Below are positions 10,443 through 60,920 of a stretch of 64,000 bases of DNA, one piece after another (positions within the stretch are counted from its first letter, which is position 1; every line of letters begins with the position of its first letter). Origin of the DNA: Moorella sp. Hama-1 (GTDB lineage: Bacteria > Bacillota > DSM-521 > Neomoorellales > Neomoorellaceae); the NCBI RefSeq assembly GCF_023734095.1, contig NZ_AP024620.1, forward strand, positions 1,732,501 through 1,796,500. The letters are read 5' to 3'. The translations under genes and the position numbers were made by a program. The notes under the pieces are model-generated. The model made no database searches. It was not told the DNA's origin and saw only the letters and a program-made list of their open reading frames with translations.

Positions 10443-10560
10443 CTAGAATCCTGCCAGGCAGGATTTATTTTTGATGGCAGCCCCCACCAAAACGTTACCT
10501 GCCAGAATATCTGCATCGGTCAGAATAGCTATTCTATCACCGGCGTACCCAGTATCCGTA
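10443..10560 (-). pseudogene. Remnant of a Cys-rich FeoB-associated mini-protein
   Basis: The minus strand encodes IAILTDADILAGNVLVGAA and then a TAG. It parallels IAILAGAGILAGSVLVRHL of the intact small gene at 26664-26816. The start codon and the Cys-rich tail are gone. Confidence 0.55.
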
Positions 10561-10663
10561 TATTTTTTCCAAAGTGCCCATTATATAGCATGGAAAAAAT
10601 CTTATCCCATTTAAGCATACTGCCAACCAAGAATACTCAAGAATTTAACAACGGAAAAAGCAA

Positions 10664-14259: not shown

Positions 14260-14303
14260 GAAAATAAAATCAGGAGCAAAAGCTTTTCCGCCATGTCTTC
14301 CTG
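14260..14303 (-). pseudogene. Short DUF4405 fragment in the leader
   Basis: GAAAATAAAATCAGGAGCAA and the bases after it match the interior of DUF4405 at 21191-21235. It lies between the promoter at 14317 and the FAD reductase gene, so it is probably carried in that transcript's leader. The rest of 14127-14259 holds nothing I can name. Confidence 0.5.
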
Positions 14304-14316
14304 CCAGCCTACATCT

Positions 14317-14345
14317 AGTATAAATCTATAAAGAACATACGTCAA
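14317..14345 (-). promoter_or_regulatory. Promoter with CATATG-type operator (copy a)
   Basis: On the minus strand: -35 TTGACG (14340-14345), 17-base spacer beginning TATGTTC, -10 TATACT (14317-14322). It would drive the FAD reductase/ATPase/ferredoxin cassette. The same arrangement recurs at eight other places in the window. Confidence 0.75.
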
Positions 14346-14438
14346 TATTGCGTTGCAAAAAAGCCCCTCCCATGAAAAAATAGGGGACACCGACGGTAAA
14401 ATTACCCTTGCTGAAGAAAATCCTGATAAACTGGTAAA

Positions 14439-14666
14439 TTAGCTTCTGAGCTTAAGCACGGCATCCTCGGCCGCATTCGTAACTTGATAGGCAATAGGCG
14501 AAGCGGTAAGGGCCGGCTGGGTCCCGACCTGCATGGTTTCCAGTTCGTCAGCCAGCATCTTATGCTGCACGGTAGCCGCCAGCAGGTTGATCAATTCTCC
14601 CACTGCAGCGCCGCCGTAGGCCTGCCCGCCTACAATAACCCCGGTTAATATTAAACACTTCATCAT
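14439..14666 (-). pseudogene. C-terminal fragment of CoA-disulfide-reductase-like enzyme
   Basis: The 75-codon open frame reads GVIVGGQAYGGAAVGEL through to AEDAVLKLRS, almost the same as the last 70 residues of the enzyme at 21535-22878. The FAD and NAD domains are missing. The first codons (MMKCLILT) are unrelated sequence, so it is a detached piece and unlikely to work. Confidence 0.8.
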
Positions 14667-14712: not shown

Positions 14713-16764
14713 TTAACCAAGCCCGAGGAGCTTACCTGCCTGGAAAACCAGCACCGCCATCACCCAGCCCAGTACCAGGCTATACCCGACAGCAAAGGCG
14801 GTCCAGCCCCAGGAGTTGGTCTCGCGGCGGATGGCGCCGATGGCCGCCACGCAGGGAATGTAGATGAGGGTCATGACCATAAAAGCGTACGCTGAAAGGG
14901 GCGTCCAGGATTGAGCAATGGCTGCGGTCAAGCCGCTCTCCTCTACCCCGTAGAGGACCCCCAAAGTACCGACGACCACCTCTTTAGCCAGGATGCCAAA
15001 GAGCAGGGCTACTGCCGCTTGCCAGGTGCCAAAGCCGGCCGGTTTAAAGATCGGAGCCAGTATAGTTCCCAGTCTTCCGATCAGGCTCTCCTGGCTGGCG
15101 TATTCAACCCCCAGGGGTAAGTTGGAAAGCACCCAGATTAGCACCACGGCAGCGACAATAACGGTACCGGCCTTGCGAACAAAGGAACTCCCCCGCTCCC
15201 ACATGTGGATTAAGGTACCCTTAAGGGTCGGTACCCGGTAAGGCGGCAGTTCCATGACAAACGGGGCTGTTTCCCCTTTAAAAAGGAAGGTCTTAAATAT
15301 TTTGCCCATGATAATGGCCAGAACTATGCCTAAAAGGTACAGGGAAAAGATTACCCAGCCCTGGTTGGCTGTAAAGAAGGCGCCGGTAAAAAGGACGTAG
15401 ACCGGCAGGCGCGCCGTGCAGGACATCAAAGGATTGATCAAAATAGTAATCATACGATCCTTGCGGCTTTCCAGGGTGCGGGTGGCCATAATGCCCGGCA
15501 CGTTGCAGCCAAAGCCAATTAAAAGCGGGACAAAGGATTTGCCGTGCAGGCCCAGGGTATGCATCAGCCGATCCATAATATAGGCGGCCCGGGCCATGTA
15601 ACCGCTATCTTCCAGGAGAGAGATAGCCAGAAAGAGCAAGAAGATGGGAGGGATAAACACCAGTACTGAACCCAGACCGCCGATTATCCCATCAGCTATA
15701 AAGGAAGTCAGGAGTCCCGGGGCACCCAGGGCCGCCAGCCAGCCGGTAACAAGGCCGGTTAAGCCCGCAAAGGCGGTTTCTACCCCGCCAATCATGGGTT
15801 CCCCCAGCTTGAAGGTAAATTGAAAGACAGCCCTCATAGCCAGGATAAAAATGGGCAATCCCAGGTATCTATTGGTAACTATGCTGTCAATCTTATCAGA
15901 TACAGTAAGCCTTTCCTCCAGGGTCTGACGCCTGGTGACGGCTTCTCTTACCAGGCCGTTGATAAAACCATAGCGGCGATCGGCAATAATGGCTTCTACT
16001 TCTTCGCCTAAAACTGCACCTAAATGCTTGTTGCTTTTAGCGGCCTGTTCCAGCACCTGCCTGGCTCCACTCTGTTGTAACTCTGTCTGAAGGCGCGCAT
16101 CGTCTTCCAGGAGTTTTATCGCCAGCCACCTGGCGGGGTATTTTGCAGAAAGATTGGGGTCGAACTTGATAATTTGTTCTAATTTATTGATCTCAGCTTC
16201 AATTTCCGGGCCATAATTCATTAGCAGGGGTTGCGGAGGCGTTTCCCGGGCTTTACTGGCAGCCATAGCCACGAGTTCTTTTATACCCTCGCTACGTGTG
16301 GCTACGGTCGGCACCACCGGCACTCCTAGAGCTTGAGCCAGGCGGGGGATATTGATTTCGATCTTGCGTGCCCGGGCCTCATCAACCATATTTAAGGCGA
16401 CGACGATGTTAGCCCCCATCTCCAACAACTGGATAGTCAAGTATAAGTTGCGTTCCAGGTTGGAGGCGTCGACGACATTGATAACAGCCTCAGGTTTATC
16501 AAAGAGGATAAAATTGCGGGCGATAAGCTCGTCCTCGCTGTAAGCACCAAGGCTATAAGTCCCAGGCAAATCTACAATATTGTAAGTTTCTCCTTGATAA
16601 ATAAGCTTACCTTCTTTTTTCTCCACCGTTACGCCCGGCCAGTTGCCGACATGCTGGCGGGCACCGGTCAAGTCGTTAAAAATACTGGTCTTACCTGAAT
16701 TGGGATTACCGACTAAGGCAATAATCTCTTCCCTTTCAGGTTTAGCCATTGCTGCTACCACCAT
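14713..16764 (-). CDS. feoB: Ferrous iron transport protein B
   Basis: A 683-residue FeoB. The N-terminal G domain has G1 GNPNSGKT, G3 DLPGTYSLG and G4 NMVDEA. A helical spacer follows (about 165-270), then the membrane core with Gate sequence [17 protein letters not shown]. The start at 16764 has GGAGGGGGG upstream. It imports Fe(II) under anoxic conditions with FeoA and is encoded last in the regulator-FeoA-FeoB operon. An internal fragment of this gene is found at 11836-11905. Confidence 0.95.
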
Positions 16765-16930
16765 GGGCCCCCCTCCTTAATATCTAAGTTTAAGCGAAAA
16801 TGTTAGTCATCCCTAACATTAAGCCAATAAAACGGCATCCTCAAATATAATCCCTGGCTATCCCCCCGGGAGAACGTTCTCTAGCATCCTCCCGCTACAC
16901 TGGTATTACTACCGGATTCCCCTATTGCCC

Positions 16931-17182
16931 TTAACCTGCTTCTTCGACCATAATCTTATGGGCCATACCCCGCCCGATTGCCAGGCGGCCACCCCCCGAA
17001 CTGTTCCCTAAAGATACGATTACGGGGCCAAAGTTATCATTGCGGATAACCCTAATGGTTGTCCCGCGTACCAGGCCTAAATCCGTTAGGCGGCGGCGCA
17101 GGCTCAGGCCCCCGGCGACTTCTCTAATTACTGCCTCCCGACCTATATCTAAAAATTCCAAGGGTAATAACCCGCTGCTCAT
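16931..17182 (-). CDS. feoA: Ferrous iron transport protein A
   Basis: An 83-residue SH3-like FeoA domain protein, with LRRRLTDLGLVRGTTIRV typical of the family. I start it at the ATG at 17182 because AGAGGTG sits 8 bases upstream; the longer reading from 17221 overlaps the regulator gene. It assists FeoB. About 165 bases separate it from feoB. Confidence 0.88.
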   Translation of the reverse strand: MSSGLLPLEFLDIGREAVIREVAGGLSLRRRLTDLGLVRGTTIRVIRNDNFGPVIVSLGNSSGGGRLAIGRGMAHKIMVEEAG

Positions 17183-17201
17183 AGCCGGACACCTCTTAAC
17201 A

Positions 17202-17891
17202 TTATTTAAGATGCTCAACAAAAATTGCTGCTGCTTCTTTTTTGCGCAAGCTCAGGTGATAACCCTTAACTTTTACTTCTATGGGATCACCTAAAGGAGC
17301 TACTCCTTCAACAGCTACTTCCGTGCCGGGAACTACACCCATATCCAGCAACCGGCGACGGATTTCTCCGTTTGCAGCAATCCGGATTACCCTGCCGCGG
17401 GCGCCTTTCTCCAGCTCGCTTAAAGACCGAATGTTGATGGCTTCCTTAATCTCCATTGTAACAGCCTCCTTTCCTTCACTTGTTCCCCCGACCTCCTTAT
17501 GTCTGGTGCCAGTTTCCTTTTCCAGGTACTCGATCAACCTGGCTAAAGTCAGCGGGCTGACTACATGTTCAATCAGGCAGGCATCCTTTGAGGCCGTTTT
17601 AGCGTCGACGCCCAGGATTTCCACCAGGAACCGGTACAAGACCTGATGCCGGCGCCGAATTTTAGCCGCCTCCTTTTTACCTGCCGGCGTAAGTTCAATG
17701 GGCCCGTACCTTTCTTGCTTGATCAGTTTCAGGTTAGCCAGGGTATGCATAGCCTGGCTGACGCTAGCCTTGGCAATACCCAGCCTGGCTGCAATATCGG
17801 TAACTCTAACAACGTCTTCTTGTTCATATAGTTCCAGGATGGCTTCCAGGTAGTCCTGCATGGCATACGATATAGCCGGGGTGCTGGTCAA
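17202..17891 (-). CDS. DtxR/MntR-family metal-dependent regulator with C-terminal FeoA (SH3) domain
   Basis: The 229-residue protein has a winged helix (about 10-65, DIAARLGIAKASVSQAMHTL), a metal-binding dimerisation domain (about 66-135, with DACLIEHVVS) and a FeoA-like SH3 domain (about 150-229). It begins at TTG 17891 behind GGAGAAGG. As first gene of the feo operon it probably senses Fe(II) or Mn(II) and represses its own operon through the box at 17953. A truncated copy of its promoter and first codons lies at 27003-27145. Confidence 0.88.
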   Translation of the reverse strand: MTSTPAISYAMQDYLEAILELYEQEDVVRVTDIAARLGIAKASVSQAMHTLANLKLIKQERYGPIELTPAGKKEAAKIRRRHQVLYRFLVEILGVDAKTASKDACLIEHVVSPLTLARLIEYLEKETGTRHKEVGGTSEGKEAVTMEIKEAINIRSLSELEKGARGRVIRIAANGEIRRRLLDMGVVPGTEVAVEGVAPLGDPIEVKVKGYHLSLRKKEAAAIFVEHLK

Positions 17892-17952
17892 ATTACCGCC
17901 TTCTCCAGGAAAGTAAATGTTAGGGTTGCTTAATTTGAGGGTTATGCGAGAT

Positions 17953-18007
17953 TGATATTCATTCTCATTGTGTAATTAAAAATATCACATCGCTAAATCC
18001 CTGTCAA
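17953..18007 (-). promoter_or_regulatory. feo promoter with Fur/DtxR-like box
   Basis: Minus strand: -35 TTGACA (18002-18007), 17-base spacer, -10 TATTTT (17979-17984). The start region carries a 7-1-7 box; on the plus strand it reads TGATATTCATTCTCA (17953-17967), two mismatches from TGATAATNATTATCA. Either the local DtxR-type regulator or Fur could bind. Confidence 0.75.
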
Positions 18008-18066
18008 GCCCTTTTTTCAACTTGCATCCGTATATTTTTTTAGGACATAAAATCTCTGCAACATTA

Positions 18067-19063: not shown

Positions 19064-19195
19064 AGGCGGTAACGGCGTCGAGAATATCCTTACTAATCTC
19101 GTACTGCCGCAGTTAGGACAGCTATCAGCATCCTCCCGCTTGTTAAAAGTACTTATTGCCCCGCAATCGCTGTATTTGAATTCAAATTCCGGCAT
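19052..19195 (-). CDS. Small FmdB-like zinc-ribbon protein, probably truncated
   Basis: A 47-residue frame from ATG 19195: MPEFEFKYSDCGAISTF, then CPNCGSTRLVRIF. One conserved cysteine pair (CPNC) is kept, while the first reads YSDCG with one cysteine replaced. This resembles the FmdB family of putative regulatory zinc ribbons. The last residues (TPLPPGPH) come from reading out of frame into the radical SAM fragment, so the natural end is lost. The promoter at 19222 lies just upstream. Its first seven codons recur at 54321-54344. Confidence 0.5.
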   Translation of the reverse strand: MPEFEFKYSDCGAISTFNKREDADSCPNCGSTRLVRIFSTPLPPGPH

Positions 19196-19221
19196 TTACT
19201 ATTACCCCCCAGCCTACTTCG

Positions 19222-19250
19222 AGTATAAATCTATAAAGAACATACGTCAA
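19222..19250 (-). promoter_or_regulatory. Promoter with CATATG-type operator (copy b)
   Basis: Minus strand: TTGACG (19245-19250), 17-base spacer, TATACT (19222-19227). It reads into the zinc-ribbon ORF and then DUF364. Confidence 0.75.
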
Positions 19251-19263
19251 TATTGCATTATAC

Positions 19264-19298
19264 AAAAGCCCCCCTGCCAAAAAAAGGGGGGGCTTTTT
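19264..19298. terminator. Terminator between the 19297 gene and promoter b
   Basis: Arms AAAAGCCCCCC and GGGGGGCTTTTT around a short loop, with T-runs on both strands. Confidence 0.8.
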
Positions 19299-21335: not shown

Positions 21336-21412
21336 TTACATACCTTCCTTCCCGGACCACATTCTAAATTCAGGATGGCATATACTTTGCTATATCATCC
21401 CCACCTGCTTCA

Positions 21413-21441
21413 AGTATAAATCTATAAAGAACATATGTCAA
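21413..21441 (-). promoter_or_regulatory. Promoter with CATATG-type operator (copy c)
   Basis: Minus strand: TTGACA (21436-21441), 17-base spacer starting TATGTTC, TATACT (21413-21418). It drives DUF4405, radical SAM, MOSC and the zinc-ribbon gene. Confidence 0.78.
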
Positions 21442-21452
21442 TATTGTGTTAC

Positions 21453-21482
21453 AAAAAGCCCCCCTGCCAAAAAAGGGGGGCT
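21453..21482. terminator. Terminator of the CoA-disulfide-reductase-like gene
   Basis: Arms AGCCCCCC and GGGGGGCT separated by TGCCAAAAAA; on the minus strand a TTTTTG tract follows. Confidence 0.7.
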
Positions 21483-21534
21483 ACCGGGAACATTAAAATT
21501 ATGCTCCCTTAAGGAAAGGCTGATAGGCTGGTAA

Positions 21535-22878
21535 TTAGCTTCTTAACTTTAGCACGGCATCTTCGGCGGCATTGGTTACCTGATAGGCAATAGGCGAAGC
21601 AGTAAGGGCCGGGTGGGTCCCCACCTGCATGGTTTCCAGTTCGTCCGCCCGCATCTTATGCTGCACGGCAGCCGCCAGCAGGTTGGTCAGTTCCCCCACG
21701 GCAGCGCCGCCATAAGCCTGGCCGCCTACAATAACGCCGGTATCTATAGTAAAGATCAGTTTTACGCCCAGCTCTCTGGCCCCCGGCATACTCCCCGGAT
21801 GCCGGTCAGGCGCCTTCGCGTTACCTGTTACGACCTCTATACCTGCTTCCCGGGCCGCCCTTTCCGTCAGGCCTACCGACCCCAGGGCCAGGTCGCCGAC
21901 AATCGTTGAAAATACTCCTACTGCCGCCCCCCTGGCCCGCCTGAGGCCGAACAGGTTGGCTCCGGCTACCCGGGCTTCATGGGTAGCTACCGAAGCCAAT
22001 TTGATGAGCGACGGCCCGTGACCGAAAAACGAGCTTTTTTCGGCGCAATCGCCAATGGCGAAGATACTGGCGTCACTGGTGCGCATATAATCATCAACCC
22101 AGATACCGAAACGGTTGTCAACTTTCAGTCCCGCCTTTTGGGCCAGTTCAATATTGGGTGCCACGCCGATACCAAAGATAACTACGTCGGCAGGCAGGAT
22201 TTCGCCATTGGAAAGTCTAACTTGCTCTACTTTGCCGTCACCCAGAAATTCTTCTACTTTAGTCCCGGTGATAATGTTTATCCCCTGAGAACGCAGCTTT
22301 TCCTCCGCCAGGGCGCAGATCTCATCATCAAATGCCAGGGCCAGGCAATGGGGTAAAAGTTCAATGATGGTAACATTCAGTTCTCGCCCTTTCCGGCATT
22401 CATCGGCTAACTCAACCCCTATGAACCCGCCACCGACGATAACCAAATTTCTCGCTTTGTCCAGGGCGCTTTTTAGTTGTTCAAGATAGGCCACATCTTT
22501 TTTGACTACGAAAACGCCTTCCAGGCCGGCACCCTTTACCGGGGGGACAACAGGAGACGAACCTGTAGCCAGGATGAGTTTATCATAGATGAGGCTGCCA
22601 GAGTTCAACAAAGAGGCAGCCTTACTGTGCCGGTCAATTTCTGTAACTTCATCAATGACCAGTTCAATACCATTATTATCGAGCATGCTCTCAGGGATTA
22701 GATTCTTTTCGGGACTCCCGACAGTACCAAAAATATAAGGAATACCGCACGGTATCAAAACCTTTTCTTCCTTACGTACCAGGGTAACCTTTTTGTCCTT
22801 AAAATACCTTTTGGCAGTAATGGCTGCCGTAAGACCCGCCGCACTCCCGCCGATAACCAATACATCCGTTTGCTTCAA
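21535..22878 (-). CDS. CoA-disulfide/persulfide reductase-like flavoprotein
   Basis: A 447-residue FAD/NAD(P) enzyme: FAD motif GGSAAGLTAAI, redox cysteine in LIPCGIPYIFG (near residue 44), NAD motif VIVGGGFIGVELA, second FAD motif FAIGDCAE, and a dimerisation domain. It belongs with CoA-disulfide reductase, NADH oxidase and persulfide reductase and lacks a fused rhodanese. The TTG start has AAAGGGG upstream. Its own promoter (23000-23029) now abuts an insertion sequence. A fragment of its C-terminus is at 14439. Confidence 0.85.
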   Translation of the reverse strand: MKQTDVLVIGGSAAGLTAAITAKRYFKDKKVTLVRKEEKVLIPCGIPYIFGTVGSPEKNLIPESMLDNNGIELVIDEVTEIDRHSKAASLLNSGSLIYDKLILATGSSPVVPPVKGAGLEGVFVVKKDVAYLEQLKSALDKARNLVIVGGGFIGVELADECRKGRELNVTIIELLPHCLALAFDDEICALAEEKLRSQGINIITGTKVEEFLGDGKVEQVRLSNGEILPADVVIFGIGVAPNIELAQKAGLKVDNRFGIWVDDYMRTSDASIFAIGDCAEKSSFFGHGPSLIKLASVATHEARVAGANLFGLRRARGAAVGVFSTIVGDLALGSVGLTERAAREAGIEVVTGNAKAPDRHPGSMPGARELGVKLIFTIDTGVIVGGQAYGGAAVGELTNLLAAAVQHKMRADELETMQVGTHPALTASPIAYQVTNAAEDAVLKLRS

Positions 22879-23046: not shown

Positions 23047-24486
23047 GTCACCGGACAGTGATATTGTCACCCTATAAGCGGACAGCGATAATGTCACTAT
23101 GAGGGGAGAAATCTTTTTGAGTGCCAAAGAGTCGCGTAGGGTGTTTGTAATCGAGCAAGCCGTTAAAGGCAAAATCACTAACCGGCAAGCTGCTGAGGTT
23201 CTGGACTTAAGTGAACGCCAGGTCATCCGCTTGAAGGAGAGGATGGAGGCTGAAGGTGTTGCGGGCCTGGCTCATAAAAACAGAGGTCGGACGCCCAAGA
23301 AGGCTGCGCCTAAAGAAACTAGAGAAAAGGTGGTCATGTTGGCCCGGGGCCCTCTTCGTGATGCTAGCTGCCAGCAGGTAGCTGAGCTCCTGGAGGAGTT
23401 CTATGGTATAACCCTTTCTGCTAAGACTGTTGGCCGGATCCTGAAGGGGGCTGGTATTCCTTTGGCCCATACCCACAGGTCGCCCAAACGCCAGAAATCG
23501 CGTGACCGTTTACCCCAGGCGGGCCTGCTTTCTCAGGTCGACGCCAGCCCTTTTGCTTGGCTGGAGGATCGCGGCCCGGAACTTTCTTTGCACGGTTCCA
23601 TTGACGATGCTACCAGCAAGGTTCAAGGGTTACATTTTGAACTTCATGAGTGCCTCCACGGCTACTTGCAGCTGCTGTTACAACTGGTGCAAAACTTTGG
23701 GGTACCTAGAAGTTTATACAGCGACCGTCACACTATTTTCTTTTCACCTAAGGAGGACAGGCTCTCGATCGAGGAGGAACTGGCTGGCCAGACTGCTCCT
23801 TTAACGCAATTTGGCCGGGCCCTTACCGAGCTGGGGATCAATCATATACCCGCTCGTTCCCCCCAGGCTAAAGGGCGCGTGGAGCGCCTCTGGGGCACTC
23901 TGCAGGGCCGCCTGATGATTGAACTCCGCCTGGCTGGTATCTCTACCCTGGAGGCGGCCAACGCCTTCCTGCCGGGCTTTATCGAGAGGTTTAACCGGCG
24001 TTTCGCCGTTACCCCAGCCAACCCGGAACCGGCTTATGCTCCTTGCCCGGCGCCGGCTAGGTTAAAGCAAATCCTATCATTGCGCCAGGAACGCAAGGCG
24101 TCCCGCGGTTCTTCTATCTCCTACCTGGGTCATACCTACCAGTTACTGGATACCGGAAATACTGTCGTTCCTTTGCGCCCAAGGGCTACAGTAGAGGTGC
24201 TGACTCATCTGGATGGTTCTTTCAGCGCCCTTTACGGCGGTAATTGCTACGCACTGCAGGAGTTTACCCAGCCGCCCAAGGTGATAGCTGAAGGCCCTAA
24301 AAAAGCTCCGGCCAGTAAGGCTCATAAGCCTGCTCCGGATCATCCCTGGCGTCGGATGCCTATCAACCAGACTAAAAAAGCAGCGCCTTTACCCAATGAT
24401 AATCCCTTGCCTGTTAGTCAAGGGGGGTGACATTTTCGTTGTCTCCTTAAGGCGTTTTTATAGTGACATTTTCATTGTCCCTTGAC
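23047..24486 (+). mobile_element. Complete insertion sequence, 1440 bp, IS1202/ISNCY-like
   Basis: The left end begins GTCACCGGACAGTGATATTG. The right end, read inward, begins GTCAAGGGACAATGAAAATG, giving imperfect terminal repeats of about 24 bp. Each end contains a second, internal copy of the GGACA-type motif (for example GGACAGCGATAATGTCAC at 23081-23098), probably transposase sites. One transposase gene fills the element. The identical 18-bp target duplications show recent insertion. Long duplications of this size fit the IS1202-like elements. Confidence 0.88.
23099..24430 (+). CDS. IS transposase (DDE, ISNCY/IS1202-like)
   Basis: A 443-residue transposase. An N-terminal helix-turn-helix (about 20-60, ITNRQAAEVLDLSERQVIRL) binds DNA. 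The integrase-like core follows: QVDASPFAWLE carries the first aspartate, YSDRHTIF the second, and QAKGRVERLWGTLQ the glutamate. It starts at ATG 23099 immediately inside the left terminal repeats. The frame is intact, so the element may still be active. Confidence 0.88.
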   Translation: MRGEIFLSAKESRRVFVIEQAVKGKITNRQAAEVLDLSERQVIRLKERMEAEGVAGLAHKNRGRTPKKAAPKETREKVVMLARGPLRDASCQQVAELLEEFYGITLSAKTVGRILKGAGIPLAHTHRSPKRQKSRDRLPQAGLLSQVDASPFAWLEDRGPELSLHGSIDDATSKVQGLHFELHECLHGYLQLLLQLVQNFGVPRSLYSDRHTIFFSPKEDRLSIEEELAGQTAPLTQFGRALTELGINHIPARSPQAKGRVERLWGTLQGRLMIELRLAGISTLEAANAFLPGFIERFNRRFAVTPANPEPAYAPCPAPARLKQILSLRQERKASRGSSISYLGHTYQLLDTGNTVVPLRPRATVEVLTHLDGSFSALYGGNCYALQEFTQPPKVIAEGPKKAPASKAHKPAPDHPWRRMPINQTKKAAPLPNDNPLPVSQGG

Positions 24487-24504
24487 AGTGTTCTTTATTG
24501 CCTT
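24487..24504. repeat. Right target-site duplication of the IS (18 bp)
   Basis: Identical to 23029-23046. Confidence 0.85.
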
Positions 24505-24525
24505 TTATCATCATTATCATCATTG
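24505..24525. promoter_or_regulatory. Fur-like box separated from its promoter by the IS
   Basis: TTATCATCATTATCATCATTG contains two overlapping near-matches to the Fur half-site ATTATCA. Before the IS arrived it stood just upstream of the promoter at 23000-23029; it is now 1.5 kb away. Confidence 0.45.
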
Positions 24526-24531
24526 CAAAAT

Positions 24532-24560
24532 AAAAAAGACCTGATTACTGCTTTCAGGCC
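24532..24560 (-). terminator. Terminator of the CstR-like gene
   Basis: Minus strand GGCCTGA and TCAGGTC arms followed by TTTTTTATTTT, 45 bases after the stop codon at 24605. Confidence 0.75.
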
Positions 24561-24604
24561 TTTCCCGTCTTTCCGCTGTCTAAAAAACCCTTCCAAGAGT
24601 GGAC

Positions 24605-24871
24605 CTACTTTAAAAACTGGCATAAAAGTTTAACCAGTTCCCGAGCACTGGAACCAGTGCCCTCTTTTTCTTGGGGAAACTTATCCAGGCAATCATCCGC
24701 GTAAATTACTAGTACCATTTCCGTAATTTTATACACAGCTGAGCGAATGGCTGCGAGTTGGTGCAACACGGTAGGGCAAGCTTCTCCCCTCTCTACCATG
24801 CGCACCAGTCCGGCCACATGCCCCTGGACAATCTGCAAACGTTTTACTATCTCTTCACGAGTATCATCCAT
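24605..24871 (-). CDS. CsoR/CstR-family (DUF156) sulfur- or metal-sensing repressor
   Basis: An 88-residue all-helical repressor. Two cysteines, C32 (GEACPTV) and C61 (ADDCLD), are 29 residues apart as in this family. The histidine that CsoR uses four residues before the second cysteine is a tyrosine here (Y57). That pattern suits the persulfide sensor CstR better than copper-binding CsoR. The nearby disulfide-reductase-like flavoprotein and TauE exporter fit sulfur control. It is a single-gene unit with its own terminator. The 225 bases upstream (24872-25096) hold no clear gene. Confidence 0.8.
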   Translation of the reverse strand: MDDTREEIVKRLQIVQGHVAGLVRMVERGEACPTVLHQLAAIRSAVYKITEMVLVIYADDCLDKFPQEKEGTGSSARELVKLLCQFLK

Positions 24872-25096
24872 AAGAAACTAAAACCCTCCCCTTACACCAT
24901 TTTCTCCTGTCTGACAATTCCCTGAACCTAAACATCTAGCACCGGTAAAGAGTCCATAAGCCATACTTTTATCCCTTATGTATTATATCATGGCCAGTGA
25001 GATTGGGAAATTGAAACCCTGAAAAGTTGACCCGCGAATTGGAAGCCATGCTAAAACGCCAGCTGGTCAAAAAAGTTCCTTAAGGTTAATTAGCGT

Positions 25097-25372
25097 TCAA
25101 TTAGGGGCTTCTGGTATGCAGCCATAGCTCGTGATGTGGGACCCTTCAAAAACCATTCTTGTCATCTTAGCAATCCAGCGCCCGTGAAGAAGTATATGAA
25201 CTGTTGCCATTCCCAAAGTAAATAATGCCGCCAACCGGTGAACTCCCCTCCAGCCGTGGCGGGTAAAAAATATTGGCCGAAATGGCCAAAGGGATAGACC
25301 GGATAAAGCAAGACTGCTAAACGCCAGCAAAAGTCCCATGTCCACGGCATAGTTAAGCTTAGACTTATTCAT
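25097..25372 (-). CDS. DUF4405 small membrane protein
   Basis: A 91-residue paralogue of 21051-21335: two membrane helices, with GWRGVHRLAAL and TVHILLHGRWI keeping the histidines. The ATG at 25372 has AAGGAG upstream. It stands alone between the CstR-like gene and HD-GYP. The 236 bases upstream (25373-25609) contain AT-rich sequence but no promoter I can name. Confidence 0.72.
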   Translation of the reverse strand: MNKSKLNYAVDMGLLLAFSSLALSGLSLWPFRPIFFTRHGWRGVHRLAALFTLGMATVHILLHGRWIAKMTRMVFEGSHITSYGCIPEAPN

Positions 25373-25609
25373 CTTTTAGCTCTCCTTGATGGCAATTTTA
25401 GAAACCCCATATGCACCCATATTTAGTATGACTATTTCTTGGAGTATATATGTTGGCAAGTAGGCTTTGCATAGCTGCATTAATAGGGCTATGCCGGTTA
25501 TGACCCACCCCCTCTACCTAGGGTTAAAAAACCTTTTATAGATTGGTCCTGGTCTATCAGATGGTCTCAATAAATCCGGAGCCATCCTTGCTCTGCAAAA
25601 TGTTCCCGC

Positions 25610-26230
25610 CTATCCAGCCTTTTTCGCCGACCACCTTTTTTCCCACACGGGCCACAATGTCTCCGCTACCTCCACCAACACCGCATCGAACTGTATGGCT
25701 TTGTTGGCCACAACTTCTTCCCAGGACTGTTGCCAGGTAAAAGCTGGGCGATAGGGCCGTTTGGAGGTCATGGCATCAATGGCATCGCAAAGGGCAATAA
25801 TACGTGAGCCTAAAGGGATGGCTTCTCCTTTTAAGCCTTCGGGGTAACCCTTGCCGTCCCAGCGCTCGTGGTGGTGAAGAACTAATAGAGCTATTGATCT
25901 TAACCGCCGCGATTTTTTTAAGATATTATAACCTATTTCCGGGTGGCGCTGGATAACCGCCCATTCGTGGGGCAAAAGCCGACCCGGCTTGCGCAAGATC
26001 TGGTCCGGTACCCCAATTTTACCAATGTCGTGCAAATGGGCGGCCATATGTATATGCTCCAGCCACGCACCCTTTAAACCGATTTCCCTGGCTAAATCCA
26101 ATGACATATCAGCAACTCGTTCCGAGTGAGCCTCACTATAAGGATCCCTGGCTTCCAATGCGGCCGTTAAACATTCAATAATATCATGGTAGACCCCATG
26201 CAGGTTACTCCCATGTATCCACGGGAACAT
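25610..26230 (-). CDS. HD-GYP domain phosphodiesterase
   Basis: The 206-residue protein is essentially one HD-GYP domain. It has HSERVADMS, HLHDIGKIGVPD (the HD pair) and HHERWDGKGYPEGLKG (the GYP motif). Family members hydrolyse cyclic di-GMP, binding two or three metal ions. No sensor or receiver domain is attached. It follows the DUF2325 gene by 30 bases and is probably co-transcribed with it. Confidence 0.88.
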   Translation of the reverse strand: MFPWIHGSNLHGVYHDIIECLTAALEARDPYSEAHSERVADMSLDLAREIGLKGAWLEHIHMAAHLHDIGKIGVPDQILRKPGRLLPHEWAVIQRHPEIGYNILKKSRRLRSIALLVLHHHERWDGKGYPEGLKGEAIPLGSRIIALCDAIDAMTSKRPYRPAFTWQQSWEEVVANKAIQFDAVLVEVAETLWPVWEKRWSAKKAG

Positions 26231-26260
26231 CCATCTCCCCCCCTCCCAGGTCCTATATTT

Positions 26261-26545
26261 TTAGCCAGTTTTAAAGGCCTCCCAGGTTTTAGCTATATTC
26301 GACCAGGACCGCCGGGCAAAAATTGTTTTCACCCCTTTTTTCTGGGCATCTTTTTTGATCTTTAAAGCCAGCCCATGATTCACATAGTCAATAAATACGA
26401 GTATGGCATCTATCTCCCGTGGCAAATTGACAGCAATATGGCCCATTTTTCGCCCGCTTAAATGTTCGATTTCAGTAAACCCAAGGCTTTTGAGGTTGTT
26501 TGGTATATTGCCCAAACGGTCACCGCCAACGATTAAAATAGACAT
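26261..26545 (-). CDS. DUF2325 protein
   Basis: A 94-residue single-domain protein with MSILIVGGDRLGNIPNNL and a lysine-rich end, typical of DUF2325. This small alpha/beta fold often neighbours iron or metal genes and has no proven function. A Fur-like box lies 20 bases upstream of the start, so it is probably iron-controlled with the HD-GYP gene. Confidence 0.75.
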   Translation of the reverse strand: MSILIVGGDRLGNIPNNLKSLGFTEIEHLSGRKMGHIAVNLPREIDAILVFIDYVNHGLALKIKKDAQKKGVKTIFARRSWSNIAKTWEAFKTG

Positions 26546-26564
26546 AAAGGATATATCCCCCTAT

Positions 26565-26583
26565 AATGAAAACCATTATCAAT
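26565..26583. promoter_or_regulatory. Fur-like box upstream of DUF2325
   Basis: AATGAAAACCATTATCAAT, a 7-1-7 near-palindrome close to the Fur consensus. Confidence 0.6.
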
Positions 26584-26663
26584 GCCCGGGCAAAAAAATT
26601 ATTGTTCCCCGATAGAGAAACTCCCGGTAACGCAAGAGCTTCTCTATCGAGGTTTAAACCGTT

Positions 26664-26816
26664 TTAGGATCGCTTTACAGATTTACCTTCCTGGCAACCG
26701 CCCTGGCAAGCTTGCCCGCAGCCAGGGCAGCCTGTACTCCTGGCAGCCCCCAGCAGATGGCGCACCAGCACGCTACCTGCTAGAATACCAGCTCCGGCTA
26801 GAATGGCTATCTCCAT
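26664..26816 (-). CDS. FeoB-associated Cys-rich membrane mini-protein
   Basis: A 50-residue product from ATG 26816. One membrane helix (AILAGAGILAGSVLVRHLL) is followed by GCPGCGQACQGGCQEG, a C-x2-C-x3-C-x3-C cluster. This matches the small FeoB-associated Cys-rich membrane proteins. It is transcribed toward DUF2325 and may be driven by the copied iron-responsive promoter at 27117-27145. A decayed copy is at 10443. Its metal-binding role is inferred. Confidence 0.72.
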   Translation of the reverse strand: MEIAILAGAGILAGSVLVRHLLGAARSTGCPGCGQACQGGCQEGKSVKRS

Positions 26817-26939
26817 CGCTTGAAGCCTCGTATAAAATGAAATTAACCCACATGAGAACTACAAAAACCTCATAACTAATACCCTCTGTAAACCCTTGAG
26901 CTTTGCTAATAACCTGCCTGGTACTTTGGCCATGTTATG

Positions 26940-27002
26940 GTAACTCACAACCCTGAGTATCGGGAGTATTTCAACCGCAAGTTCAAGGAATCTACTCGCC
27001 CA
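26940..27002 (+). pseudogene. Possible transposase fragment
   Basis: The plus strand reads VTHNPEYREYFNRKFKEST, resembling the Asn-Pro segment of IS110-type transposases. It is cut off at the copied promoter region at 27003. Confidence 0.3.
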
Positions 27003-27145
27003 CGATGGCTTCCAGGTAGTCCTGCATGGCATACGAAATAGCCGGGGTGCTGGTCAAATTACCGCCTTCTCAACTTGCGGGTTATATGAGATTGAAATTC
27101 ATTATCATTTACGTAAAAAATACCATGCTTATCGACCCCTGTCAA
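27003..27145 (-). promoter_or_regulatory. Copied feo-type promoter, Fur/DtxR box and first codons of the DtxR gene
   Basis: The sequence repeats 17840-18007. Minus strand: -35 TTGACA (27140-27145), 17-base spacer, -10 TATTTT (27117-27122), then the box (plus-strand TGAAATTCATTATCA, 27093-27107) and the opening codons for TSTPAISYAMQDYLEA, after which the gene is missing. The promoter looks usable and points at the Cys-rich mini-protein gene. Confidence 0.75.
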
Positions 27146-27186
27146 GCCTTTTTTCAACTTGCATCCGTATATTTTTTTATCAGTAG

Positions 27187-27783
27187 TTAAACCTTAACCC
27201 CCAGCGCCAGGTAATAATCCGCTCCCCCGTTAACCTCGATATTTACCAGTCCCGCAGCTGCCAGCAGGGTTACCATTTCCGTATTGGACGGGATCTGGTC
27301 CCCGGCCACAACGCCCCCAATGGAACAATGCAGATGATTTATGGTCTCCCGGGCCGCCGTATGGCAGATAATCACCCGCCCGCCCGGTTTGGTCACCCGG
27401 GCCATCTCTTTTAGCGCCTCTAATTTCTGGGGAAAATGGGGAAAGGCTGAGTTACAGATAACCTCCTCAAAGGTAGCCGCCGGAAAGGGAATCCCTATAA
27501 CGTCGGCGCAAATAAACTCCACATTGGCGGGGAAGCCTTTACTTTGCGCCTGTTTAAGCATGCTCTCGGCTATATCCAGGGCCACCACCCGGCCGGCAGG
27601 ACCTACGGCCGCCAGCAAATAGGGAATGAGAATACCCGTGCCGCAACCTACATCTAATACAGTGCCGCCCGGCGCCAGGTTCAACCCTTTAATGATTGCT
27701 TCCAGTTTGGCCCGCTCTTCCGGCGTGGCCAGGCTGTCCCAGATAGCCGCCTTGCTGTTGAAATACTCACGATGGGTAAACAA
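27187..27783 (-). CDS. Class I SAM-dependent methyltransferase
   Basis: A 198-residue methyltransferase with motif I VLDVGCGTGILIPYL, motif II around VVALDIAES, and FICADVIGIPF. It starts at TTG 27783 behind GGAGGATAG. It is the last gene after the Znu-type permease and may modify the imported ligand or a regulator; the substrate is unknown. Confidence 0.8.
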   Translation of the reverse strand: MFTHREYFNSKAAIWDSLATPEERAKLEAIIKGLNLAPGGTVLDVGCGTGILIPYLLAAVGPAGRVVALDIAESMLKQAQSKGFPANVEFICADVIGIPFPAATFEEVICNSAFPHFPQKLEALKEMARVTKPGGRVIICHTAARETINHLHCSIGGVVAGDQIPSNTEMVTLLAAAGLVNIEVNGGADYYLALGVKV

Positions 27784-45450: not shown

Positions 45451-45870
45451 TTAACGGCAGGCGGGGCAATAACCAAAGAAAATCGTCGACGCATTGAGAA
45501 CCTGAAAACCCTTTTTTTCTATCTCCCCATCTGCTGCAGGCCTTTGCGCTTTATGAAACTCGTAAATACGGCCACACTTGAGGCAAACAAAGTGATTATG
45601 CGGAACTTTTTGGGTCTCATAGCGGGCCGTCCCATTCAGGGACGGTGCCTTTTGAATAAGGCCCATCTGAACGAAGAGATCTAATGAGCGGTAGACAGTG
45701 GCTACCCCTACCGTCGGGCAATACCTGCGGGCTACCTTGTAAATAGATTCTGCCGTGGGGTGTTCCCGGGATAATTCCAGGAAGGCTTGAAGTACCGCCT
45801 GGCGCTGGGGTGTTAAACGCCGATCGCTTTTGCGAAATTTCTCCTCGTCCAGAACTACCCCCGCAGACAT
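45451..45870 (-). CDS. Fur-family regulator
   Basis: A 139-residue winged-helix regulator: RLTPQRQAVLQAFLE, HPTAESIYKVARR, TVGVATVYRSLDLF, and metal motifs HNHFVCLKCGRIYEF and CPAC. It may be Fur, PerR or Zur; the residues seen do not decide. It starts 4 bases after the NifU stop, so it is coupled to an Fe-S assembly gene and iron sensing is likely. Confidence 0.88.
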   Translation of the reverse strand: MSAGVVLDEEKFRKSDRRLTPQRQAVLQAFLELSREHPTAESIYKVARRYCPTVGVATVYRSLDLFVQMGLIQKAPSLNGTARYETQKVPHNHFVCLKCGRIYEFHKAQRPAADGEIEKKGFQVLNASTIFFGYCPACR

Positions 45871-54068: not shown

Positions 54069-54344
54069 TTAACGATCAAACCTGAAGACACGTCCTGCTT
54101 CATTGTAAATAAATTTATCACCCAGGGCCTGGTAAAGGTTGGCGCTGGCGCGAAAACCGGTGCAGTGGCAGACCACCAGGTATTGTAGATCAAAACGCGA
54201 TAGGGCCTTGATCGTCTCCGTTAGCCGTTCCGGGCCGGCGTCCTTTAAATGAGTGCTGCCGATGACGGCGCAGAGGCTACCGGCACCGGTAAGGTTCAGA
54301 GCGCGCTCCAGGGTGACTCACCATTTGAATTCAAATTCCGGCAT
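54069..54344 (-). pseudogene. Zinc-ribbon start joined to metallo-beta-lactamase-fold C-terminus
   Basis: Codons from ATG 54344 read MPEFEFKW and stop. From about 54313 another frame reads VIGSTHLKDAGPERL and LVVCHCTGFRASANLYQAL, the C-terminus of an MBL-fold hydrolase. Neither gene is complete. The rest of 54009-54476 holds a promoter and terminator. Confidence 0.7.
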
Positions 54345-54370
54345 TTACTATTCACCCCCAACCTGCTCCT

Positions 54371-54399
54371 AGTATAAAGCTATAAAGAACATAGGTCAA
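54371..54399 (-). promoter_or_regulatory. Promoter with CATATG-type operator (copy d)
   Basis: Minus strand TTGACC (54394-54399), 17-base spacer, TATACT (54371-54376). It reads into the fragment above and perhaps the SPASM gene. Confidence 0.7.
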
Positions 54400-54406
54400 T
54401 ATTGTA

Positions 54407-54437
54407 TTGCAAAAAGCCCCCTGCCAAAAAGGGGGCT
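54407..54437. terminator. Terminator after the MOSC gene
   Basis: Arms AGCCCCC and GGGGGCT around TGCCAAAAA, with T-tract on the minus strand. Confidence 0.7.
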
Positions 54438-54476
54438 ACTGTGAAAATTATAGTTTTTAGTTTACGTAATTTAAGT

Positions 54477-60719: not shown

Positions 60720-60840
60720 CTATAAACCAAAATGTAGCAGTTGGTACACGGTGGGGGAGGCGCCGATACCTCCGGATTTATCCAGAAGAAAAGGGTTGGT
60801 CGGGTCCAGGCGGGCTCCGGCATTCGCTATTCATCGCCAG
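60720..60840 (-). pseudogene. SPASM radical SAM C-terminal and zinc-ribbon start fragments
   Basis: Bases resemble 18973-19195: a decayed NCYKLF region, then remains of the MPEF start at about 60820. Confidence 0.6.
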
Positions 60841-60845
60841 GTTCT

Positions 60846-60874
60846 AGTATAAACCCATAAAGGACATACGTCAA
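60846..60874 (-). promoter_or_regulatory. Promoter with CATATG-type operator (copy e)
   Basis: Minus strand TTGACG (60869-60874), 17-base spacer, TATACT... (60846-60851). Confidence 0.72.
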
Positions 60875-60920
60875 TATAACCGTGCAAAAAGCAGCGAGGG
60901 CTGCTCTGTGCAATTAAAAA

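Follow-up and report, generated by a model that had tools for sequence, protein, structure and literature searches.

Why does a bacterial genome carry a second copy of a ferrous-iron uptake (feo) promoter, together with the first codons of the regulator gene dtxR, in front of genes among which neither the regulator nor feoB is found? The question is raised by a locus of Moorella sp. Hama-1, on the minus strand of the 64,000-nt stretch of DNA analysed here as a whole (the window), for which the original prediction held that a captured promoter may have placed the gene of a 50-residue Cys-rich membrane protein and the DUF2325 and HD-GYP genes behind it under iron control. On comparison with other feo loci of this genome and of its relatives, the locus looks like a known operon type in decay, and less like a case of other genes having newly acquired a promoter.

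A second feo promoter region and the genes behind it

Blastn within the window aligned positions 27000-27179 (minus strand; copy B) with positions 17834-18042 (minus strand; promoter A) at 76.9% identity over 212 columns (E = 1.9e-43; 6.8e-42 in a genome-wide search). The duplication of a feo promoter, its box and the first dtxR codons had thus been recognized correctly, and its span is longer than the 27003-27145 originally claimed. Promoter A heads an intact dtxR-feoA-feoA-feoB operon (operon A, 14713-17891, minus strand), in which Pfam matches delimit a dtxR-feoA fusion (17202-17891), a further feoA (16931-17182) and feoB (14713-16764); a third promoter copy, C, lies about 8 kb past the window, at 1804762-1804903, in front of a second feo operon. 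The three promoters have in common TTGACA, a 17-bp spacer, TATTTT, a Fur-like box and a TTG start, with ribosome sites of the GAGAAGG or GAAGAGGG type. In copy B, the -35 hexamer TTGACA (27140-27145) and the -10 hexamer TATTTT (27117-27122) are separated by the 17-bp spacer and followed directly on the 3' side by the Fur-like box AATGATAATGAATTTCAATCTC (27088-27109, all minus strand; 15/19 to the Fur consensus on one strand), a Shine-Dalgarno-like GAGAAGG at 27071-27065 and the TTG start at 27057. Across ten promoters compared (A, B, C and seven from congeners), TTGACA is identical in all and TATTTT in nine, the sole exception being the TATCTT of congener G006. Between the methyltransferase gene upstream and the Cys-rich gene downstream (27187-26816), copy B gave the sole promoter-like match on the minus strand.

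The regulator itself is absent from copy B, as had been stated: the frame opened by the TTG (26992-27057, minus strand) consists of 19 dtxR codons and two foreign codons and ends with a stop at 26992. This stub differs from the dtxR of operon A at 2 of 58 nt, and at E <= 0.01 the window contains no dtxR match besides these two. The dtxR homology stops at about 27000, and homology to congeners restarts at about 26821, five bases before the start codon of the Cys-rich gene. The intervening filler of about 180 bp (26822-26999, delimited by sequence comparison) stands in place of the rest of dtxR, feoA and feoB, for which the equivalent stretch in operon A, from 17834 to about 14667, measures about 3.2 kb. 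No second copy of the filler was found in the genome (next best match E = 0.0455, 23 bp), and nothing better than E = 3 was obtained against plasmids. A plus-strand frame in it (26913-27008) bears a weak likeness to the C-terminal region of an IS110-type transposase, with matches of the peptide in three congeners at E = 0.19-0.27 and 38-40% identity (38% over 21 residues for the match at E = 0.19); the match in G006, the only one for which the family was read, falls inside an IS110 transposase. A mobile-element scar would fit such a filler. Its sole Pfam match, SNRNP27, was sub-threshold (E = 0.095) and was taken as chance.

The order of genes behind copy B on the minus strand agrees with the prediction, being, by open reading frames and Pfam, the gene of the 50-residue Cys-rich protein (cys B, 26664-26816), a DUF2325 protein gene (26261-26545; PF10087, 55 bits against a cutoff of 33.6) and an HD-domain protein gene (25610-26230; PF13487, 140 bits; PF01966, 83 bits), whose HHERWDGKGYP stretch we take to fit the name HD-GYP. 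Homologues of cys B at E <= 0.01 occurred in five of 61 genomes, namely its own, as the operon C copy, and those of congeners G001, G003, G006 and G009. All of them, at 66-71% identity, sit directly 3' of feoB, and cys B itself has no feoB beside it. The profile PF12669 (FeoB_associated) gave 14.1 bits for cys B (E = 0.059), below the curated cutoff of 27 bits; no PF12669 match was reported for the five homologues, and no NCBIfam family for the Cys-rich protein or for DUF2325. The cysteine spacing in the translation, Cx2Cx3Cx3C, departs from the motif Cx3-5Cx2-3Cx6-8C given in PMC8749426. Because both the profile cutoff and the motif are missed, we class the predicted product as FeoB-associated by position and not by family; the label of a Feo mini-protein is strong by position, the five homologues lying directly 3' of feoB, and weak as a profile assignment.

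Gene order of feo loci in relatives and in the same genome

In G001, G003, G006 and G009, the feo promoter is followed by feoA-feoA-feoB-cys-DUF2325-HD-GYP and then by a close homologue of the oxidoreductase gene that lies at 21535-22878 in the window; the first feoA is fused to dtxR in G006 only. The order feoB-cys-DUF2325-HD-GYP is thereby present in four of the six congeners with a close feo operon. In the other two, G002 and G005, HD-GYP lies directly 3' of feoB, no match to cys or DUF2325 was found in either genome, and feoB of G005 is broken by one internal stop. G004, G007, G008 and G010 gave no match to a close feoB; completeness is 84% for G007 and 58% for G008, and the G007 contig ends at the promoter and dtxR. 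G004 contains another decayed feo locus, in which the remains of dtxR, distributed across several frames, stand behind a partial feo promoter (L028, 6382-6864), with no feoB match in the 14 kb examined.

Outside the genus, neighbours were examined at nine of the 80 loci returned by an HD-GYP search, in which the best identity was 66%, so that congeners are not included and near relatives may be absent. In six of the nine, HD-GYP is preceded on its own strand by a FeoB-like match (30-65% identity), at a distance of 3.4 kb in a Clostridia metagenome-assembled genome (MAG; L054) and closer in the other five. Proteins matching PF12669 and PF10087 above cutoff are encoded between feoB and HD-GYP in this MAG and in Desulfosporosinus nitroreducens (L055), and in a Firmicutes MAG (L059) the interval between the FeoB-like gene and HD-GYP contains DUF2325 and a short Cys-rich ORF that has no Pfam match. 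At a further locus (L056), a DUF2325-like match precedes feoA; in G013, of the same family as Moorella, feoB has DUF2325 behind it, and the contig gave no match to cys or HD-GYP. In the Clostridia MAG, a Fur-family gene separates feoB from the Cys-rich ORF, behind which DUF2325 lies (L054, 2637-3636).

Since the same order recurs in the congeners, in Desulfosporosinus and in the Clostridia MAG, the genes behind copy B would already have belonged to a feo locus and therefore represent its usual tail. This bears directly on promoter capture, according to which a feo promoter and the first dtxR codons were inserted upstream of cys-DUF2325-HD-GYP and newly brought them under iron control: with old feo neighbours downstream, such an insertion must have rebuilt a lost arrangement. 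The upstream side is kinder to capture, for the neighbours of copy B there are genes of a methyltransferase and a znuB-like protein, neither of which was found within the 3-4 kb preceding the feo promoters in G001, G003, G006 and G009, and with flanks unmatched in the four congener operons, synteny leaves room for the insertion of a promoter and stub.

Within the genome, operon A is the product of what appears to be the opposite loss. It lacks cys, DUF2325 and HD-GYP behind feoB, and at the expected place of cys carries a fragment (14439-14645, minus strand) that matches the 3' end of the oxidoreductase gene at 21535-22878 (89.4% over 207 nt) and starts within a few bases of the cys point. An open frame of about 75 codons containing this fragment (14439-14666) begins at the expected cys start position and stands behind the ribosome site of the absent cys. 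Operon C has cys directly 3' of feoB and is without DUF2325, for which the genome gave one match, that of copy B; behind the HD-GYP gene of operon C, only short pieces resembling the oxidoreductase gene were found. A fourth, more decayed relic (10485-10568) joins a 15-mer from the region upstream of the promoter to a 48-bp match (77%) to the cys 5' end.

Because operon A ends and the genes of copy B begin within a few bases of one point before the cys start, a single rearrangement might have broken one ancestral operon between feoB and cys and duplicated a promoter in the process, so that copy A received promoter-dtxR-feoB and copy B everything from cys onwards. The oxidoreductase 3' end behind operon A weighs against this course of events: homology continues there (14265-14645 to 21365-21741, 82%), so that A looks like a separate long copy, and the spacers of promoters A and B differ much. 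We regard such a split as unlikely.

The surroundings are repetitive in their own right. The window from 11276 to 63534 and beyond is a mosaic of dispersed duplicates, among them 30728-33315/48214-50804 (93%), 47110-48033/55614-56537 (99%) and 20110-21030/59037-59957 (84%), with an intergenic repeat of about 70-115 bp at 14304-14386, 19174-19290, 21386-21495, 54323-54450 and 60816-60890. It also contains three molybdenum/tungsten cofactor riboswitches (RF01055; 37102-37239, 40994-41129 and 50856-50993) and one cobalamin riboswitch (RF00174; 10162-10441), all on the minus strand.

Kinship of the promoters and candidate iron control

The elements of promoters A and B have diverged very unevenly. 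Of the 17 spacer positions, 10 differ, whereas the hexamers and box taken together have 2 differences in 34 (p = 7e-5; 0/12 hexamer and 2/22 box positions). Between B and G007, the corresponding values are 4 of 17 and 5 of 34, a contrast that is not significant (p = 0.34). Between the -35 hexamer and the start codon, B and G007 have 71/88 positions in common, and B and A 67/86; the slight edge of G007 stems from the part from spacer to box (23/30 versus 15/28), and from the box to the start B agrees better with A (46/52 versus 42/52). Upstream of the -35 hexamer, agreement is 48/61 with A and 24/33 with G007, and a 15-mer in this region is common to A and B, occurring at three sites in 79.5 kb (A, B and the relic at 10485-10568). 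The dtxR stub has hardly changed between A, B and G007, which differ in it at 2 or 3 of 58 nt.

The kinship of the promoters is thus mixed by segment; to judge from these alignments, A and B are of common ancestry, and B is no recent copy of A, given the difference at 10 of 17 spacer positions. A recent capture from operon A, considered as a candidate, was rejected on the same piecewise comparison. As the stub has remained near-identical while the spacer drifted, it probably belonged to an intact dtxR, and was constrained as such, during most of the period after A and B separated, and translation of the stub or gene conversion could also account for the likeness. Capture in general can draw on the clear homology of copy B to promoter A, on the stub and on the shared 15-mer. 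The spacer and the prior association of the same genes with a feo promoter in relatives nevertheless make it quite improbable, and this part of the original prediction finds little support.

Iron control is a separate matter from capture. In a graded scan of 79.5 kb with a 19-bp Fur consensus, the four best sites were a Fur-type palindrome upstream of DUF2325 (26562-26580; 16/19, the single best match) and the boxes of promoters A, B and C (15/19 each); the maximum in five random sequences of equal size, which served as the null, was 14/19. A genome-wide scan with a box pattern proved too loose (199 matches versus 118 for a control pattern) and was discarded. The genome has four Fur-family genes, one of them in the window (45490-45825). 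In five of the six congeners with a close feo operon, the box is present at 16/19 and the first gene matches the FeoA part only; since the box is kept where that gene has no more than the FeoA part, Fur seems the likelier reader, and a DtxR-specific box was rejected.

Behind cys B, a hairpin resembling an intrinsic terminator (26652-26607, with a T-run at 26599-26593; 26593-26652, minus strand) was identified by folding and by scan. It has a 20-bp stem of -32 kcal/mol (z = -6.7) followed by AACAAUAAUUUUUUU, a stem-loop plus T-run, and is one of 5 scan matches versus 3.5 expected overall. Hairpins of different sequence lie between cys and DUF2325 in all four congeners that have both genes (-29.2 to -37.6 kcal/mol, z = -2.3 to -4.6), with T-rich tails that are weaker and farther off than in the window. 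No clear core promoter was predicted before DUF2325 on the minus strand in a scan of the window, and Rfam at the gathering threshold gave no match from promoter B to HD-GYP. Box-like sites precede DUF2325 in the four congeners at 13-14/19, and because these scores do not beat the null maximum, conservation of this box is suggestive only. Given the strong hairpin and T-run after cys and the box of its own in front of DUF2325, promoter B most likely serves cys alone, with DUF2325 and HD-GYP forming a separate unit, which again sits poorly with a capture that would have united all three genes under one promoter. In the collection of papers searched, nothing found for DUF2325, HD-GYP and FeoB together mentions DUF2325.

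The intact hexamers, the Fur-like box and the lack of any other minus-strand promoter-like match in front of the gene make iron control of cys B by promoter B plausible; DUF2325 and HD-GYP, to which the prediction extended this control, would have no need of promoter B, being hairpin-separated and provided with their own Fur-type box. Promoter and stub might also be debris, with cys B silent or reached by read-through only, a condition compatible with a deletion. Read-through into the locus is possible from the methyltransferase and metal-ABC genes, which lie upstream on the same strand with no terminator-like site predicted on that strand from the methyltransferase gene to promoter B; furthermore, the relic at 10485-10568 exemplifies deeper decay, a leader of about 170 untranslated nt could favour Rho termination, and promoter-like matches are frequent in the region anyway (8 versus 4.3 expected, sd 2.1, over 24400-27300). 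Set against a dead promoter are the 12 intact hexamer positions of 12 and the retained box beside a spacer that has drifted from A. The cys B frame, too, is open, and compared with its five homologues over 40 codons it has pN of 0.18-0.19, below pS of 0.39-0.53 (Fisher p = 3e-4 to 0.03), so the ORF has been under purifying selection, part of which may predate the deletion. We hold a dead relic to be possible, if doubtful.

A probable internal deletion in a feo operon and its implications

Taken together, the locus is probably a feo operon with an internal deletion that kept the promoter and the last gene of the unit. The ancestor would have read promoter-dtxR-feoA-feoA-feoB-cys-[terminator]-DUF2325-HD-GYP. 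From this arrangement, to judge by the relatives and operon A, about 3.2 kb would have been lost, from dtxR codon 19 up to a point a few bases short of the cys start, and about 180 bp of unrelated sequence would have taken the place of the dtxR-feoB stretch. The old promoter, with hexamers and Fur-like box kept, now lies about 300 bp upstream of cys. At low iron, Fur would leave the box of promoter B, and RNA polymerase would make an mRNA of ~500 nt comprising the stub peptide, the filler and cys and ending at the hairpin behind cys; DUF2325 and HD-GYP would be transcribed apart, controlled from the Fur-type box in front of DUF2325. Operon A has no cys gene behind feoB, and its FeoB may be served in trans by the mini-protein. 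That cys B is now a stand-alone gene that responds to iron through its own promoter and works in trans with this FeoB is a tentative proposal, which we would not yet count as likely.

Parts of this arrangement are familiar. A small Cys-rich ORF downstream of feoB is described in PMC8749426 as predominant in Firmicutes and Bacteroidetes, and the locus shares with the Firmicutes feoAB operon treated there the presence of feoA, feoB and such an ORF in one locus, whereas copy B is without dtxR-feoA-feoA-feoB between promoter and mini-protein gene. The DtxR-FeoA fusion of operon A resembles PgMntR, a DtxR-family protein with C-terminal FeoA domains (PMC4805248), but has one such domain where PgMntR has two, and copy B keeps 19 codons. 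Feo components encoded apart are likewise a trait of Helicobacter pylori, whose feo genes are not known to be clustered; here, by contrast, it is the Cys-rich ORF that is parted from feoB, and the genome has fuller operons as well. The Feo system of H. pylori is the subject of PMC10353542.

Whether such Cys-rich ORFs are translated into functional peptides is put as an unanswered question in PMC8749426. An open cys B behind an intact feo promoter and without adjacent feoB is a natural test case, in which the expression of the mini-protein gene and the consequences of knocking it out are separable from those of feoB. The locus also illustrates how varied the losses of genes around cys have been within the genus, and the older neighbourhood in Clostridia sets an HD-GYP-type gene beside genes for ferrous-iron uptake. 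If the reading proposed here is true, this natural split of a feo operon would show that the disputed small ORF encodes a real, separately needed product.
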